In this document: piece by piece, positions 5,110 to 59,197 of the stretch
Layout: each line of letters begins with the position of its first letter
Numbering within the stretch: position 1 is the first letter of the stretch
Assembly (NCBI GenBank): GCA_030549835.1
Contig: JAUQQR010000002.1
Span: 1-64,000, forward strand
DNA length: 64,000 nucleotides
Origin: Thermoproteota archaeon
GTDB lineage: Archaea; Thermoproteota; Thermoprotei_A; Sulfolobales; Acidilobaceae
Reading direction: 5' to 3'
Made by a program: the position numbers and the translations under genes
Notes under the pieces: generated by a model
Databases searched by the model: none
What the model saw: the letters and a program-made list of their open reading frames with translations, nothing else
Told to the model about the DNA's origin: nothing

Positions 5110-8100
5110 ATCATTCCATAATTCTCTTATGATATTTTTAGGGTCTACACCGTTAACTTCTATCATGTCAAGCTTCTCTTCTAATAACCTAGTATAGTCT
5201 TCGGAGATTATTGGGTTAAACTTATTCTTTAAGATACTATAAACCTCTAATCCTAGCTTTGTAGGTATTAATAGTTTCCTCTTCTTACTCTCAACTATAT
5301 ATCCATGTCTCTTATTCGCCTCTATAGCTTTATGGTATGTGCTAGGTCTCCCTACATTTTTCTCCTTCATAATCTTAACTATGTCTCCACTCGTGTAGAG
5401 TGGAGAAAGGCTACTTTTGAATATCTTAGCATCTAAAACCTCTATAGAGTCTCCCTGCTTAACGGTTAGGGTCCAAGGCTCAATCTTATAGCCATATACT
5501 CTAGTGAAGCCATATATTTTAAAGTCTCCAATCTCCTCTATACTAATACTTCTACTTCCTACAGTTAGGGTTATAATTGATTTTATGGCTTTAGCTTCAA
5601 TCATTTGACTAGCTATAAAGCGCCTAAATATAGCATCATATAGAGCCTTATGCTGCCATGTTAACCTAATAGGTATTCTGAGTGTGCCCTCACTTAATGC
5701 TTTCTCTAAACCCTCTAAGTCTAGGGGTTTCGTAGGTCTTATACACTCATGGGCTCCACTAGAGCTCCATACTCTAGGTTTAAAGTATTCTTGGAGACCT
5801 CTCTCCTCTAAATAGTTCTTAGCTACTAGTATACCTTGCTGTGATACTCTAGTTGAGTCTGTCCTATGATATGTTATTAGTCCTGACTCGAAGAGATCCT
5901 GAGCTATCCTCATTGATCTCTCAGCATTTAAGCCTAGCTTATTAGATGCGTCATAGAGTAGAGTATCTGTAGTATATGGTGGTGGGGGGCTTAGATCCTC
6001 TATTAAGTATGCTACATTAGATACCAGTATATTATCAGTTAATGCTATACTCTCAGCTATACTCTTACTCTCTACAGGCAAGCATAGGTTATAGCCTACT
6101 TTTAGCTTAAAACACACCTTATAGACTATACTATTAGCCCACGCATTAAACCTCTCTATAATCCAGCCTAGTACTGGTGATTGAACTCTACCAGCACCAA
6201 GCCACTTATAACCATAAATATTCTTAAGGTAATCACTTAGAGTATAGCCAATTAACCTATCAGATATCCTCCTAGCAATCTGAGACTCTACAAGCTTTAT
6301 ATTTATTAAAGTAGCATTCTTTAAAGCTTCAGTAAACTCCCTCTTAGTAACTTCTCTAATCACTACTCTCCTAATATTCTGGTTATAGGCTTTCAATGTT
6401 AAGTATATATCAAAAGCTATCTTCTCCCCCTCTCTATCTGGATCTGTAGCTATTATAATCTCATCTACAGTTAAAGCTAGCCTCCTTAGAGCCTCAACTA
6501 TAATCTTAGAATCAAATACTTCGCTGGAGCCGCATCTAGGACATGTAGTACTTGATATAAATTGGTAACCACACGATTTACATCTCTTAATACTACCATA
6601 GATTGGGATATAGTCTGAGTTACTACCATTTACTATAACACCGTATCTTGAATTATTAAGATTCTCTACAAGTTCAAATATATGGCCACGAGATGCAGTA
6701 ATTTGTAGGAGGATAACATTACCACTAGCATCATCAACCATCGACGTCTCATATACTATAAGCCTCCCAATCCTCTTCTTTCCGGGTCTGCCCCAGAACC
6801 ATGCGATAGTCCTAGCTTTTGTTGGAGACTCTACTATAACTAGAGAACTTTTTACATTAAATTCTCTACCATTCCCACTCCTACTATCTTCTAATGTCTT
6901 CTTAATAGACTCTATGTTTAGGGTACTATAATCTATGATTTTAGAGTCTGAATATAATTGAAGCCTAGACTCTAATGCTCTAACTAAGTTAAGCCTAGAC
7001 TCTATTATAATACTTAAACCGAGAGTCATCTTACCATCAAGGAGCCTACTAGCCCTCCCACTAGCTTGAATATATGTCAGGACATCTGGGATATAAATAT
7101 AGTCTTCTAAACCCTCATGTGTGGCTAGCATTGTTCCAATCATGTACTCTCTACTCTCTAATAACTTTCTTTTAAGCCAGCTAGTAGCCCACCTATAGGC
7201 ATTAATTAATATGTTGACAGTATCAGCCATTAAACCCTCAGCCTCACCTCTCCTAAGAGCTCTTAATAGCATACTATAGTCAGAGACTTTCTCTAGGGTC
7301 TTAGAAACATTTGATAGGATAGATTGAGCATCACTAACACCCTCATCTCTAGCTTGTATTAAGACTCTAGTAAGCCTCATAGGGTTTAGTAGTGCATCTT
7401 CAACTCTAATCTTCCTAGCTGGGACGCCTATGAATATAGTATACTTTATAGCTCTTGGGGCATCTAGGCCCCTAACAGCAACCCCATACCTACTAGCTAT
7501 AGATACTATAACATCGATATCTCCCCTCTCAAGTTTGAGAACGCTTCTCCAGGAACCTGCTATAGCCTTCTCTACCCTAATACCATTTCTTCTAAGAGCT
7601 ACTACTACTTGGTCAATATAACTCTTGCCTAGGTATTGACTTACAAAGATTAAACCTCCGGGTCCTAGACTCTTTACTAGCTTAACTATGCAATCTAACG
7701 TATTATCATCTATAATGTATGAGTCAATAATATTCCTAATATAGTCACTCCCACCTCCAACTTCAAAGTTTAAGAGCTCTCTAAATACAAGATGCCTGTA
7801 ACCTCTAGGTCTACCAGTAGCTGATGCTACTATAAGCTGACCATTATTTGTAGTCTGTTGCAGTAGTCTTCTAAGTTTTGACTCGAGCTCGAGGCTCGTA
7901 TACTCGAGTTTCTCAACTATATCACTAGGATTAGAAGCTCTAATCTTAGATAATCTAAGTTTAACCTTAATGAGTTCTAGGGCAGTTCTTATAGTCTCTT
8001 CACTAAAACCTAGTAGTATTAAGATTCTATCAATATTCCTACTATCTCTCATAAGGCTATCGACATCATCAACTACAATTAAGTTGAATCGCCTTAATGC

Positions 8101-11295: not shown

Positions 11296-11425
11296 GCCGC
11301 CGTAGCTCAGCCCCGGTAGAGCGCCGGACTCATACGGCCCAATCAGTTAGGAGTCGATAGAAGAGAGGGGAAAATGGGCCTGGGGGATCCGGAGGTCCCG
11401 GGTTCGAATCCCGGCGGCGGCACCA
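11296..11425 (+). tRNA. tRNA-Met(CAT), elongator type, with 52-nt intron
   Basis: The acceptor stem GCCGCCG pairs with CGGCGGC (11415-11421), A73 follows, and CCA is encoded at 11423-11425. The anticodon stem CCGGA (11324-11328) pairs with TCCGG (11388-11392). CAT is at 11331-11333. An intron at the canonical position 37/38 spans about 11335-11386; its ends (ggccca and tgggcc) can form the central helix of a bulge-helix-bulge for the archaeal splicing endonuclease. The G1-C72 pair and the CCGGA stem argue against an initiator tRNA; a tRNA-Ile2 (modified CAT) is the alternative. Confidence 0.93.
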
Positions 11426-16066: not shown

Positions 16067-16118
16067 TTAGAGTTTATACGCTATAGGAACAATATAATAC
16101 TTTGAAGTGGTGGGTTTA

Positions 16119-16688
16119 ATGTACATAAAGCAAATAGCACTAAATGGACTTATCCTAGTGCTGCTAACAGCGGCTTTCGCCGCGGTCTTCGCCTACTATC
16201 CATTAGACATCATAGCACAGCCTACAGCACCTGGAGTAGTATTTGTGCCTGGAAGCAACGCCGGGCAGCCGGACATCGGAACAGGTAACCAAATAGAGGT
16301 CACAATTGGTGCAAGCCAGGCGAGCGCCACGGTCAAAATACACCCAACTTACCGAGAGAGCTACTACAAGGATGTCCTACAAGTCAATAACAAAGACGAT
16401 AACGCAATGAACGTGTATATCATTTTCTACGCGGTAACAAACAACCTCCCAGAAGGTAGCGTAGTCAAGCTCTTAGTGTACGAAGGAAACACGAAGGTTA
16501 AAGAGCTAGTCATAACTAGTCCCCCGCTCAACACGCCGGTATTTATAGGCACCCTACAGGTTAACGTGATCTGGCGATTTGATTTCTACGTGTACATACC
16601 CGAGGGGACAGACATCACAAATGCAATATACACAGCAGGTGCCAAGCTAGTGTACACACCATCAACAGAGACACCGCCAGTAATCTAA
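16119..16688 (+). CDS. Secreted filament subunit, TasA/AbpA (bundling pilus)-like
   Basis: I choose ATG 16119 (189 residues), preceded by a ggtgg ribosome site, over GTG 16107. A basic start is followed by a hydrophobic stretch (about 6-26) ending in AAVFAYYPLDIIAQ, a signal peptide of the type cut by signal peptidase I, not a class III prepilin. The mature part is strand-rich and Ig-like, with IEVTIGASQASATVKI near 59-74 and KDVLQVNN near 84-91. Together with the signal peptidase next door this resembles the TasA, camelysin and archaeal AbpA group, whose subunits join by donor-strand exchange into extracellular filaments. Homology to AbpA or cannula proteins is inferred from layout and pattern, not alignment. 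GC-rich codons differ from the flanks. Confidence 0.68.
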   Translation: MYIKQIALNGLILVLLTAAFAAVFAYYPLDIIAQPTAPGVVFVPGSNAGQPDIGTGNQIEVTIGASQASATVKIHPTYRESYYKDVLQVNNKDDNAMNVYIIFYAVTNNLPEGSVVKLLVYEGNTKVKELVITSPPLNTPVFIGTLQVNVIWRFDFYVYIPEGTDITNAIYTAGAKLVYTPSTETPPVI

Positions 16689-16701
16689 GCGGTAAGGTGA
16701 A

Positions 16702-17814
16702 ATGCAAGCTAGACAGTTTGAACCTAAAAGTTTTTTCCTTAAGTCCCTTTCCCTTGCTTTAAGTATCATCTTCTTGTTATCTATACTTGTCGTTGTGCTT
16801 ACACTTCTCTCAAGGTTTGACTATCTGAACATCCTGGGAGCATCAGTAGTTATCTCTGATAGCATGGAGCCTACTATAAGACGCTGGGACATGGTCATCT
16901 ACGTAAACACTAATTTCACTGTTGGCGATGTAGTAGTTTACTGTGTGACCCCTAGCCACTGCATAGTTCACAGAGTCGTAGACTTCCTCCACTTAAACAC
17001 TGTTAATGGTTATAAAACTATGGTGACAGCAAAAGGGGATAATGTCAACATAACCGATAGCCCAGTAGAGATAGAGAAAGTTAGAGGTAAGGTTCTCTTC
17101 ACATTTCCTAGAGAGCTCTGGATACCGTTGCTAGTGGCCGTTACATCCTACATACTCTATGGACTTGCCAGGATCCCTTACGTTGGCCCCTCCTACGTCT
17201 TCGTACTATGCGTCTGGCTACTCCTGGTGGTGTCCGTCTACGCAGCAGTTCCGAGGCTAATTACACCAACGCCTGTGGTCGAGCCGGTGCTGAACCTAGC
17301 CGGTGTGTACTTAGACCAAGCATCATGCACTGTGAACATTTGCTACACGGGGACCCTGTTGCCAACTAGTGTCAAAGTGAATGTGAACGGAGCTCTCGCA
17401 GAGGTTGTCTCGATATCTTGGAGGGAAGTGGTTGTGAGGCCAGACCCTAGGTTACTACAAGGAGCTTTCGAGGGTAGGAGGCCCCTACTGGTAGAGGTTG
17501 AAGCAGAGCTGAACTATGTAGGCAGGCTATATGGCAGGTACAAGCTACTCGTAGGCGGGGCGAACCCGGAGCTAAGTGTTATAAACGGGGTTCTCCTGGT
17601 CAGGAACCCGAACTGTTTTCCAATAGCAGTGGATGTTGCGGTAAGATACCTGGTCAATAGTACCTGGGCGTGGAGTAATAGTACATTGATTGTTGAAGGC
17701 GCTTCAGACGCGGTGATCGAGCCACCTGAAGACGCTAAGTACGTGTACGTTTACGTGTACTGGTTTAACCAAGGTGAGAAGCGATGGGTTGGACTATCAG
17801 TGAAAACCGGTTAA
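16702..17814 (+). CDS. SipW-like signal peptidase I with extracellular C-terminal domain
   Basis: The 370-residue protein has an N-terminal membrane helix (about 12-37), the nucleophile Ser54 in SDSMEPT, and a histidine, His90 (IVHRVV), in place of the bacterial lysine, as in archaeal and ER-type S26B peptidases. KGDNVNITDSP at 111-121 supplies the aspartate box. A second and third helix (about 140-157 and 164-184) follow, then about 185 outward-facing residues of strand-rich unknown domain, much longer than normal for the family. The start ATG has an aaggtga site. Position between the filament subunit and the large lectin-like protein points to a dedicated peptidase, as SipW serves TasA. Confidence 0.85.
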   Translation: MQARQFEPKSFFLKSLSLALSIIFLLSILVVVLTLLSRFDYLNILGASVVISDSMEPTIRRWDMVIYVNTNFTVGDVVVYCVTPSHCIVHRVVDFLHLNTVNGYKTMVTAKGDNVNITDSPVEIEKVRGKVLFTFPRELWIPLLVAVTSYILYGLARIPYVGPSYVFVLCVWLLLVVSVYAAVPRLITPTPVVEPVLNLAGVYLDQASCTVNICYTGTLLPTSVKVNVNGALAEVVSISWREVVVRPDPRLLQGAFEGRRPLLVEVEAELNYVGRLYGRYKLLVGGANPELSVINGVLLVRNPNCFPIAVDVAVRYLVNSTWAWSNSTLIVEGASDAVIEPPEDAKYVYVYVYWFNQGEKRWVGLSVKTG

Positions 17815-19847
17815 GCATGCTCATCAATATGCTTATGCTAGTATCAGGCGTGGCTTGTGCTATAGTATCCACAATCTACATCTTAGTAGTAGTGCTCCCA
17901 GTTTACTACTTCCACGGCTACATCCAAGGATACTACTCTATCCTTGACTACAGGCTCTACTACATCGTAGACCAGCAGCCTGTTTCCATGCAGCACACAG
18001 ACTACATTAGACATGTATCCCTTTCATTCACAGTATTATCACTCACAATTCTATCTCTCTCAATATTATCCATAGTTCTCTCAAGAGGGAGGGCGACCCT
18101 GGCTGCAGGACTAGCTTTCGGGTGCTCATCTGCTCTAATCCTCCTCTACGGGCTCTTCAATGGCTACATCTACAGGGCTATGGAACTAGACCTAGCTAGG
18201 TTTCGAGGCCTTCTCGGAGATATCATCACGATGAGAACGACAGCAGGTAACATTACGTTCACTGGAGTCAGGCTAGAGCAGGCAGGTGTTCTCGGGTTAG
18301 CACTAAACAACTGGATAATGCTAATGCTAATAGCTATAGCAGTTGTGGCTTCCTACGCATCCGTCTTACTAGTCTCGATGAGACTACCTAAACACATCTT
18401 AAGACACAGCGCCTGGTACGGCAGGATCGGGCAGGGACTAGTATACACAATGACAGCAGTCCTAGTACTCTCATCCCTCGCATCAATCTTCAGTTACTAT
18501 CCATCCTCTCTAGTCATAGTACCCCAGCCACCACCAGCTACACTAGAACAATCACAATACACTTACACGTGCACTGACTTGGCTAGAACAAGTAGAGGAG
18601 CACTAACAAACACTGACTTCGAAGAATACCCTATATCCGGGTGGACTAACTACGGTGGTAATTGGGAACTTTCAACTGGAGGAGGCTTCAAGGGCAACGC
18701 TCTAAGGGGGAGAGACAACAATCGTGGTGTAGGAGCTTCATCCCAGTACTACTGGAACACTAGGATAGATGGGTACACCTCACTATGGGTATCAGTGAAA
18801 GTTAGAGCAGAAACAATAGATGGCAGAAAGGGGATAGGACTGCTTAACGCTGATAGGAACAGGCTCTACGAGATATCAGTGAGTAACGGCCTAGCCACTA
18901 TACGCAAATATGATGGGTCTTGGGTATCAATAGGCAGTTCACCGGTTTCAGGGTATAGTGCCACTAGATGGTACACTCTCGTTCTACACTACAATGTAAC
19001 CGCTGCACGTGTCAGCTTCAGGTTATGGGTATACGATGATACAGGGACCTTAGTTTCTACACTATCAGCTAGTGACGTGGGGGGAACGAGATTCACCCCT
19101 GCTTACGCGGGTGTTACAATAGATGCTCCTCAAGCTCGTCGGTTTAGATTTGATGACTTCATAATATCAACGGTAGACCCTAGGATAATCATGTTCACGG
19201 GCTTCTACACAGGCATGAGGGTTAAGGTATGGGACAACCTAGGAAACCTTGTGAGCTCTGAAACTACTACAGCAACCTCATTCACACTGGATGTTACGAG
19301 AGATATTGTTGTGGGTACTGGTGTTGATGGAAGGATTGCAGTGGAGTACCCAGATGCGTACCTCTGCGGCACCCTCACAGTACCCAGCACCGACGCCATA
19401 CTGGGCGGAGACACATACACCCTGACCACAGCCTCAATCTCGGTGAGCCTAGGTAGCAATAAGACCAGCGCTAGTTTAACGCTAAAAATTTCAGGGACTA
19501 CCCGGTTCAACACGACGGCAAGAGTCCTCCAAATAAGCACCTCCCAGATTCTCTACGCTAGACTGATACTGGACTCTGCATCAGCCTTGCCCACACTAAA
19601 CTTAAACATATGGATCGAGGGCGCCACAAGCTCTACGAGCATAATTATAAAAGACGGCGTGCCGATTGCTGACTCGACGAGCTTAGTGCAGCTCAACCTC
19701 GGAGCGGGGAACAGCATCTCTATATCTGGCTACTTCACAGCGACTGACCAATTAGCAACACTAAACCTAAAGCTAAAACTCTGCACTGTAAGCAATGAAG
19801 CTGGTGTATGCATATACTATCCAATAGTATTATCAGTAAATTCCTGA
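17784..19847 (+). CDS. Five-helix membrane protein with lectin-like and filament-subunit-like domains
   Basis: ATG 17784 follows a strong aaggtgag site and overlaps the peptidase gene by 31 bases. Of 687 residues, the first 200 contain four membrane helices (about 12-43, 79-100, 104-130, 174-199). A fifth hydrophobic stretch (217-248) ends SIFSYYPSSLVIVPQPPP, much like the end of the filament subunit's signal peptide (AVFAYYPLDIIAQPTAP). Residues about 275-462 look like a concanavalin/LamG jellyroll (NTDFE..., FRFDDFIIST). Residues 550-687 begin SISVSLGSNKTSASLTLKI and include ARVLQIS, matching the subunit's pattern. It may be cut at the internal site to release an adhesin or capping subunit. 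Homology of the C-terminal domain is my reading. Confidence 0.75.
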   Translation: MGWTISENRLSMLINMLMLVSGVACAIVSTIYILVVVLPVYYFHGYIQGYYSILDYRLYYIVDQQPVSMQHTDYIRHVSLSFTVLSLTILSLSILSIVLSRGRATLAAGLAFGCSSALILLYGLFNGYIYRAMELDLARFRGLLGDIITMRTTAGNITFTGVRLEQAGVLGLALNNWIMLMLIAIAVVASYASVLLVSMRLPKHILRHSAWYGRIGQGLVYTMTAVLVLSSLASIFSYYPSSLVIVPQPPPATLEQSQYTYTCTDLARTSRGALTNTDFEEYPISGWTNYGGNWELSTGGGFKGNALRGRDNNRGVGASSQYYWNTRIDGYTSLWVSVKVRAETIDGRKGIGLLNADRNRLYEISVSNGLATIRKYDGSWVSIGSSPVSGYSATRWYTLVLHYNVTAARVSFRLWVYDDTGTLVSTLSASDVGGTRFTPAYAGVTIDAPQARRFRFDDFIISTVDPRIIMFTGFYTGMRVKVWDNLGNLVSSETTTATSFTLDVTRDIVVGTGVDGRIAVEYPDAYLCGTLTVPSTDAILGGDTYTLTTASISVSLGSNKTSASLTLKISGTTRFNTTARVLQISTSQILYARLILDSASALPTLNLNIWIEGATSSTSIIIKDGVPIADSTSLVQLNLGAGNSISISGYFTATDQLATLNLKLKLCTVSNEAGVCIYYPIVLSVNS

Positions 19848-37392: not shown

Positions 37393-38946
37393 TTGCCTGA
37401 GACTGGTAGTTTATACGTAGTTGACTTAGACTCTATACTCGATGGTAGTGTTAGGTCTATTATTGAGAAGAGTATAGTTAAAGGTAAGATACTAGTACAT
37501 AAGGCTATTATAGATTATTTAAGCTTAGAGGCTAGTAGTGGTAGGACACTCGGCTTTACTGGCTTAGAGGAACTTAAGAAAATACTAGATTATAATGGTC
37601 AATATGTTGAGATTAGTGTTGTTGATGAAGAGAGGAGGCCATATAAAGATTTAGATAGGAGTACTGTTAAGAGTATTATAAGAGATTATGCTTGGAAAAT
37701 TGGAGGAATACTTATAACGTCTGATAAAGTTCAAGCTGCTACAGCTCAAGCTCTAGGTATAAGAACGCTTTTCTCAGCTAAGGATGAACAAGTTAAGCTT
37801 AAATTCGAGCATTTCTTTGACTTAAAAACTATGAGTGTACATCTTAAGGAGGGGGCTCCTCCCTTAGCTAAAGTTGGTAGTCCTGGTAGGTGGGTATTTG
37901 TTAAGCTTAGAGAGGAGGCTATAAGTAGAGCTGAGCTTGAAGAGATGGCTAGGGAAATTATTGAAGCAGCTTCACGTGGCTATGGGTATGTTGAGATTGA
38001 TAGGCTAGGGTCGACTATAGTACAACTTGGGGATTACAGGATAATCATAGCTAGGCCTCCATTTAGTAATGGCTGGGAGATAACAGCTGTTAGGCCATTA
38101 GTTAAGCTTAGACTAGAAGATTATAATTTGCCAGAGAAGCTACTTAGAAGGTTAATGGAGAGAGCTGAAGGTATATTAATAGCTGGAGCTCCAGGTATGG
38201 GTAAGACTACTTTTGCTCAAGCACTAGCAGAGTTCTACTCTAGGCAAGGTAAGATTGTTAAGACTGTAGAATCTCCGAGAGATATGAGGCTCCCAGCAGT
38301 AATAACACAGTATTCTAAGGCTTACGCTGATGTTGGAGAGCTCCACGACATACTACTATTATCGAGGCCAGACTATACAGTGTTTGATGAGCTTAGAAAT
38401 GATGAGGACTTTAAACTATATGTTGATTTAAGGCTTGCAGGAATAGGGATGATAGGGGTACTCCACGCTACATCACCTATAGATGCAATACAGAGGTTTA
38501 TTAGGAGAGTAGAGCTAGGTATGATACCTAGTATTATAGATACTGTAATATTCATTAATGAGGGCAGAGTAGAGAAGGCTTACGAGATATCAATGACAGT
38601 AAAGCTACCATCAGGACTTAGAGAAGCTGAGCTTACAAGGCCTGTAGTAGAGGTTAGAGACTTTATGACAGGAGATTTAGAATTCGAAATCTATATCTTT
38701 GGAGAGCAGACTATGGTAGTTCCAGTTAAGGCTACGGGTGGGAGAGGTTATAGCGTAGCCTTAGCTGGAACTGCTATAGAGGATAGTGTAAGGAAAATCA
38801 TACCAGAAGCTAGTGTTGAAACTAGAGAGGGGGTTTTAATAGTTAGAATACCTAGACTAGGGGGTAAGATAACAGCTAGGAAGATTAAGAGACTTAAGAG
38901 TATAGCTGAAGAACATAACCTAAAACTTAGAATAATGCCAGGATAG
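37393..38946 (+). CDS. PIN-domain ATPase (PINA-like) with C-terminal KH-like domain
   Basis: The 517-residue protein starts with a PIN nuclease fold (YVVDLDSILDG near 8-18, GGILITSDK near 107-115). Next comes a secretion-type/PilT-like RecA ATPase with Walker A GAPGMGKTT at 265-273 and VFDELRND near 334-341. The end (VETREGVLIVRIPRLGGK) is KH-like. This is the layout of crenarchaeal PINA, reported to drive Holliday-junction migration and to bind Hjc. Here hjc lies 11 bases downstream, which supports that assignment. Length is typical. Confidence 0.9.
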   Translation: MPETGSLYVVDLDSILDGSVRSIIEKSIVKGKILVHKAIIDYLSLEASSGRTLGFTGLEELKKILDYNGQYVEISVVDEERRPYKDLDRSTVKSIIRDYAWKIGGILITSDKVQAATAQALGIRTLFSAKDEQVKLKFEHFFDLKTMSVHLKEGAPPLAKVGSPGRWVFVKLREEAISRAELEEMAREIIEAASRGYGYVEIDRLGSTIVQLGDYRIIIARPPFSNGWEITAVRPLVKLRLEDYNLPEKLLRRLMERAEGILIAGAPGMGKTTFAQALAEFYSRQGKIVKTVESPRDMRLPAVITQYSKAYADVGELHDILLLSRPDYTVFDELRNDEDFKLYVDLRLAGIGMIGVLHATSPIDAIQRFIRRVELGMIPSIIDTVIFINEGRVEKAYEISMTVKLPSGLREAELTRPVVEVRDFMTGDLEFEIYIFGEQTMVVPVKATGGRGYSVALAGTAIEDSVRKIIPEASVETREGVLIVRIPRLGGKITARKIKRLKSIAEEHNLKLRIMPG

Positions 38947-59102: not shown

Positions 59103-59197
59103 TGGAGCCGCCGGCGGGATTTGAACCCGCGACCACCGGCTTACAAGGCCGGCGCTTTTGGCCCGCGCAGGCGGTCTACCAGCTGAGCTACGGCGGC
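59103..59197 (-). tRNA. tRNA-Thr(TGT) with 19-nt intron in the D-arm
   Basis: On the minus strand the acceptor GCCGCCG pairs with CGGCGGC, T73 follows and CCA is encoded (59103-59105). The anticodon stem CCGGC/GCCGG holds loop CTTGTAA with anticodon TGT. The D-arm reads GCTCAGCTGGTAGA and then 19 extra bases (about 59174-59156, CCGCCTGCGCGGGCCAAAA) before the closing GC. Removing them gives a perfect GCTC/GAGC D-stem. The extra segment forms its own hairpin (CCGC/GCGG). This is a non-canonical intron at about position 23/24; no anticodon-loop intron is present. Confidence 0.93.

Follow-up and report, generated by a model that had tools for sequence, protein, structure and literature searches.

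What does an archaeal operon build that places a small secreted protein beside a signal peptidase of its own? The question is raised by positions 16119-19847 of a 64,000-nt stretch of DNA (the whole of it referred to as the window) from a Thermoproteota archaeon of the Acidilobaceae, order Sulfolobales (assembly GCA_030549835.1, contig JAUQQR010000002.1, positions 1 to 64,000). Three open reading frames form one tight operon here, as had been stated in the original prediction: gene A, then gene C, separated from it by 13 nt, then a third gene of 687 amino acids (aa), the start of which overlaps the end of C by 31 nt. A GGTG-type ribosome site lies ahead of all three starts, and the three-gene set goes beyond chance, since it is conserved in dozens of genomes. 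The original prediction, made from the sequence alone, saw in it a TasA/AbpA-like or cannula-like filament, assembled by donor strands, distinct from type IV pili and served by a SipW-like peptidase. Our analysis agrees with the donor-strand filament, the separation from type IV pili and the peptidase, but leads to a different family: in this hyperthermophilic archaeon the operon probably builds a surface filament of the type of the Sulfolobus thread, with its own peptidase and a sugar-binding end cap. The features of the operon are as follows; SipW-like peptidases are grouped with those of the endoplasmic reticulum (ER), and E and i-E denote expectation and independent expectation values.

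16073-16079, forward strand: putative TATA-like box TTTATAC upstream of the operon, read from the sequence
16119-16688, forward strand: gene A, 189 aa, ATG start; candidate major filament subunit of the thread (Saci_0406) family, by homology and fold
16119-16181, forward strand: signal helix of A, aa 1-21, cut predicted after Ala21 from alignments and the conservation of this residue
16182-16232, forward strand: N-terminal donor strand of A, aa 22-38, consensus SVFVYYPxxVTVxP; conserved, putative role by homology with the thread
16702-17814, forward strand: gene C, 370 aa, S26 signal peptidase, ER/SipW-like by family profile, with an outer domain
16861-16971, forward strand: predicted catalytic residues of C, Ser54 (16861-16863) to His90 (16969-16971), conserved in 38/39 and 39/39 homologues
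17251-17811, forward strand: outer beta-rich domain of C, aa about 184-370; possible kinship with Saci_0407/0408-type proteins, suggestive
17784-19847, forward strand: third gene, 687-aa open reading frame, fusion of modules D and B
17784-18431, forward strand: module D, aa 1-216, membrane protein with four helices; in most relatives a gene of its own
18432-19847, forward strand: module B, second pilin with inserted lectin-like domain, aa 217-687; separate gene in most relatives
18435-18491, forward strand: fifth helix or internal signal peptide of B, cut predicted at Ala233-Ser234 (SSLA-SIFSYYP); Ala at -1 in all nine fused proteins, the window's site being read by eye
18483-18530, forward strand: putative N-terminal donor-strand copy of B, SIFSYYPSSLVIVPQP, matched by the hidden Markov model (HMM) profile of A (i-E 2.5e-6)
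18606-19205, forward strand: lectin/CBM66-like domain of B, bounds approximate (Foldseek, CBM66: E 2.2e-5, template modelling score TMt 0.73; legume lectins)
19809-19841, forward strand: extra C-terminal strand of B (VCIYYPIVLSV region), proposed to be self-complementing; model strand 460-470 with a predicted local distance difference test score (pLDDT) of about 95

Gene A and the thread subunit family

The product of A fits the small secreted, strand-rich protein with a signal of the signal peptidase I type that had been foreseen, with a single N-terminal hydrophobic helix (about aa 6-24) and a beta-rich remainder. Searches of Pfam, NCBIfam and, with single sequences, of the PDB yielded nothing usable for A, B or D; the family signal of A was obtained through profile and structure searches. 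A profile of 18 A relatives found one sole match among PDB sequences, the thread subunit 7pnb (E 0.0033), in an alignment that covers 183 positions and runs colinearly from the signal helix to the C-terminus. The cleavage sites are aligned as well (A-DVIYYY in the thread and A-SVFVYY in A), so that Ala21 takes the Ala23-Asp24 position of Saci_0406. A second profile from which the Sulfolobaceae rows were excluded nevertheless reaches thread homologues of this family, with E-values of 7.8e-8 and 3.4e-6 per genome. The fold search gave the same ranking: for the AlphaFold (AF2) monomer model of A (pLDDT 91) the best PDB match was again 7pnb, the thread of S. acidocaldarius (E 2.4e-8, template modelling (TM) score about 0.64), followed by 7ueg, the bundling pilus of Pyrobaculum calidifontis (E 2.4e-6), and these two were the only PDB folds below 1e-3. 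Taken together, the profile match, the fold match and the Sulfolobaceae-free profile firmly support homology of A with Saci_0406, the thread subunit, from which it has diverged. By analogy with the thread, A would act as a donor-strand pilin and form the shaft.

The conservation pattern is consistent with such a role. Within the A family an HPTY motif is invariant, and a highly conserved (S)VFxYYP stretch stands directly behind a near-invariant Ala; Ala21 itself is invariant in 18 aligned rows and reaches at least 90% in 28. As in the thread, the predicted tyrosine-rich donor strand comes straight after an N-terminal signal of the signal peptidase I type. No strand is assigned to residues 18-38 of the monomer model (pLDDT about 65 over aa 21-30), as expected of a donor strand lacking its acceptor. 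The window's A is closest to A proteins of other families (57-66% identity), and two genomes of its own genus carry only a distant A (L112 and L113); this mismatch may reflect either patchy inheritance or transfer.

The third gene: modules D and B

The third product had been described as one large membrane protein with lectin-like and filament-like domains. Both domains are present, but the protein is rather a fusion of two genes: a four-helix part (aa 1-216), module D, is joined to module B (aa 217-687), another pilin that carries a signal-like helix itself. The profile of A matches the 687-aa protein (P0003) at aa 220-256, so that an A-like site and donor strand follow this helix, and all nine fused proteins known to us have a small residue at position -1 of the D-B junction (SLA-SIFSYYP in the window, read by eye). 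An A-like cleavage site and donor strand at this point suggest a polyprotein, and the D-B product is probably split in two by C. Because of the fusion an earlier D profile drifted into A and B; the profile used here was built from the D of the gene that follows C.

B resembles A in the donor strand and in parts of its core, and the additional domain of B is inserted between these. When the window's B was modelled with AlphaFold (pLDDT 88), the best fold match was a fusion of the minor and major pilins CfaE and CfaB (E 2.2e-7), followed by lectins and CBM66. Compared with A the chain runs on beyond the end, adding one confident final strand that carries a YYP motif. From the position of this strand past the end of A, and from its prediction as a strand, we infer that B may close its own groove and would hence be a terminal subunit; with its lectin-like domain it would be suited to the role of an adhesin cap.

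Alternatively, B could be a cell-proximal anchor (TapA-like, or a base pilin) that stays in one uncut D-B chain and holds the filament to the membrane. Indeed, the window's B forms one covalent chain with four membrane helices, and the polarity of the thread cap Saci_0405 is left open in the thread report (PMC9715654). In most relatives, however, B is secreted as a protein of its own, a small residue is retained at -1 of the helix-strand junction in the fused forms, and a lectin-like domain is of more use at a tip. We therefore regard the anchor as rather unlikely and prefer B as the distal, sugar-binding cap.

The peptidase, the relatives of the locus and a possible mode of assembly

Gene C scores 62 bits against the archaeal signal peptidase I model of NCBIfam (TIGR02228, cut-off 51.85), with the SipW model ranking second. 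The catalytic Ser54 and His90 of the original prediction are exact, two Asp positions are conserved likewise (38/39 and 39/39 of the same homologues), and the enlarged outer domain is real, with about 185 aa. Besides C, the window's genome encodes one signal peptidase, a 156-aa enzyme of the housekeeping type on another contig, and no third S26 gene; as just one other is present, C counts as a second, locus-bound signal peptidase. Linkage, conserved catalytic residues and a conserved site together suggest C as the enzyme that cleaves the A and B precursors. A search with the outer domain of C places 6/9 Saci_0407/0408-type proteins of thread clusters among the 20 highest-ranking of 729 (best E 3.5e-4; p 1.5e-8), but the reverse search, from these proteins to the outer domain, gave no enrichment (p 0.31) and hhalign also found no link between the two; with the link running one way, we consider this kinship suggestive and do not claim it.

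Relatives of A, most of them from metagenome assemblies, were found in 54/197 sampled genomes of the order and in 37/300 genomes sampled over the phylum, 18 of the 37 lying outside the order. Several families of the order are represented among them, and two assemblies are labelled Bathyarchaeota and Nezhaarchaeota, which may be due to transfer or mis-binning. The usual gene order is A, B (a secreted second pilin of 340-500 aa), C and D (four helices, about 200 aa). When an automatic rule was applied to 43 distinct loci outside the Sulfolobaceae with at least 3 kb of downstream sequence, C was present in 35, B in 35 and D in 32, and C is close by in L047 and L099 too. The order A, C, fused D-B is confined to the window and eight relatives; in the tree of A the fused-form rows fall into one clade (support 99/96) together with two unlabelled rows, whose contigs end too early for a fusion to be judged, and a single fusion event fits this pattern. 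How many signal peptidases the genomes of the order hold was not taken as evidence of co-occurrence, because loci of the TasA/Abp type add a further S26 gene. Some variants of the locus were also seen: in one relative of the window's own family (L104) A is followed by an outer-domain protein, a four-helix-like protein and a B-like protein, that is, by the window's order minus the peptidase. L106 carries an A gene in two frames (6585-7168; 113 and 83 aa) with C and the fused D-B open, hence either a broken gene or a sequencing error, and one genome (G003) holds two A loci, L110 and L111, with a shorter C (243-255 aa).

In the mode of assembly that we propose, A would be exported by Sec as the precursor of the shaft subunit and be held by its N-terminal helix. 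C would cut the precursors of A and B behind the conserved Ala and so release the (S)VFxYYP strand, which would fill the groove of the next A, as in the Sulfolobus thread. B, with its own groove closed by the last YYP strand, would start or cap the chain, since a self-closed subunit needs no donor, and as the tip it would carry the sugar-binding domain outwards; in the fused lineage it would be set free from the D-B product, which has kept its cleavage site, probably by C as well. D and the outer domain of C could, at a guess, form the membrane base. As the lectin-like domain favours a distal tip for B, new subunits would be added at the membrane each time C sets a tail free. More tentatively, and with considerable doubt, this might amount to a pilus pathway driven by a signal peptidase, in which every cut would free a donor strand for the addition of one subunit, beginning at a self-complemented lectin tip and working without chaperone, usher, sortase or ATPase; the outer domain of C might hold the pilins, and in one lineage this enzyme would also cut the polyprotein in which tip and base are made together.

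Several observations weigh against such a filament with its own peptidase and cap. Over the whole chain, B reaches only low TM-scores with pilins (0.17), and most of its fold signal stems from the lectin domain. In a matrix scan the donor-like C-terminal motif ranks first or second in only about ten of 42 B proteins, and the window's own B is not one of them. Profile-profile comparison and ranking detected no similarity between D and the four-helix proteins of Sulfolobus clusters. Some relatives hold A and B with no C nearby, among them the two own-genus genomes, which have a distant A and B pair (L112, 5483-7449; L113, 1581-3568). Finally, in the thread clusters of nine Sulfolobaceae genomes a C-type S26 peptidase was found near A in 0/9, so that C cannot be a general requirement for making threads.

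This last result is also what speaks for C as a general second signal peptidase, co-transcribed by chance, with the housekeeping enzyme sufficing for the filament. But C has a specific outer domain and is linked to A across many families, which makes such a coincidence unlikely and favours the locus-bound enzyme.

Relation to known filaments and tubes

The filing of the locus as TasA/AbpA-like was not upheld. A true SipW-dependent biofilm fibre would agree with the SipW-type peptidase in the operon and with the second place of AbpA in the fold search, and in Bacillus the TasA operon has the dedicated peptidase SipW and the accessory protein TapA (PMC9674648). The thread, however, is the better match by both sequence and fold, AbpA and TasA having no sequence match to A; in the fold comparisons made with the monomer model of the 189-residue protein AbpA comes second to the thread (E 2.4e-6), and TasA was found outside the top 50 fold matches. 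Neither TIGR04088, the family of SipW-dependent signals, nor any TasA-like sequence is matched by A. Moreover, genes of this kind occupy loci of another type in the same order, where TasA/Abp-like proteins with SipW-type signals lie beside an S26 protein of about 400 aa (L126, 3485-6013; L127, 4808-7637; L128, 5358-8728; L129, 5357-8739; L130, 4781-7391; L131, 1895-5383). In L126 the peptidase part of this protein is seen at its C-terminal end, and in the PDB a pilin of this locus has a weak match to AbpX, an archaeal bundling protein (E 0.02). Both types of locus occur together in the genomes G077 and G028. Thread-type and TasA/Abp-type loci are thus separate and can share a genome, each with its own S26 peptidase, and a TasA/AbpA-type fibre seems improbable here; the SipW analogy is good for the way of working, not for family membership. 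A tube of the cannula type, finally, is very unlikely in place of a thin filament, as the fold matches of A to Hyper2 (9bab, E 3.2e-3) and CanA (E 2.6e-2) are far weaker than that to the thread and neither protein is matched by sequence in the PDB profile search.

The operon is also not a type IV pilus locus, as no A24 peptidase or T2SSE ATPase is found among its genes. The absence of these functions had been predicted, which is correct for the operon but not for the whole genome, where an A24 peptidase is encoded on contig C59 and T2SSE-type ATPases on contigs C7 and C23. Within the window a 517-aa protein (37393-38946) gives a weak T2SSE ATPase match (31 bits); it looks like a PIN/KH-type ATPase, not a pilus motor. 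Apart from these genes, we noted a tRNA of 127 nt at 11296-11422, which is found by Rfam, missed by ARAGORN and probably contains an intron, and a tRNA at 59103-59197, the extent of which differs between the two programs.

Two clusters of observations concern the Sulfolobaceae themselves. The 446-aa frame of L084 (4825-6165), a Saci_0404-type protein, has a signal helix followed by the donor-strand-like SASVYYFFQAQLIF, and proteins of this type are possible adhesins of the Sulfolobus thread. MinD/ParA-like ATPase genes (KGGVGKST) lie near the thread cluster in 4/9 loci, mostly beside the four-helix gene (L086, 3668-4327; L088, 899-1489 and 4229-5116; L089, 3412-3999; L091, 3028-3618); the available parts of the thread papers do not name them.

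These results extend the thread-type systems beyond the Sulfolobaceae, to many other families of the order and to archaea outside it. They add candidate assembly parts, namely a dedicated peptidase that bears an outer domain, a cap with a lectin-like domain and a four-helix protein, and they offer a testable mechanism for thread assembly, a pathway stated as unknown in the thread papers, which list the neighbouring genes without function (PMC9715654, PMC11607397).

Among known systems, AbpA (7ueg) and Bacillus TasA form donor-strand filaments, as is proposed for the present locus, and the cannulae of CanA and Hyper2 are tubes whose subunits share a distant fold match with A. With chaperone-usher and CFA/I pili (tip adhesin CfaE) the locus would have in common donor-strand assembly and a terminal subunit made up of an adhesin and a pilin domain; unlike in chaperone-usher pili, no chaperone or usher is seen in the operon, and release by a signal peptidase is proposed instead. 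The closest counterpart is the S. acidocaldarius thread (Saci_0406, 7pnb; cluster Saci_0404-0408), with which A shares its subunit family by profile and fold, the order of signal helix, donor strand and core, and an aligned class I signal peptidase site. The neighbours of both loci include a second A-like protein, multi-helix proteins and outer-domain proteins, the Sulfolobaceae clusters carrying a one-helix outer-domain protein (Saci_0407/0408 type) and a four-helix protein. The present locus differs from the thread cluster in that it includes an S26 peptidase, to which an outer domain is fused, as well as a lectin-bearing B and the D-B fusion, and the window's A has no N-glycosylation sequon (median 2 in its relatives), compared with 2-6 in the Sulfolobaceae subunits. 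Asp24, through which an isopeptide bond between subunits is proposed for the Sulfolobus thread, is replaced by Ala/Ser in the present subunit family; we therefore call the system thread-type and not a thread in the strict sense.

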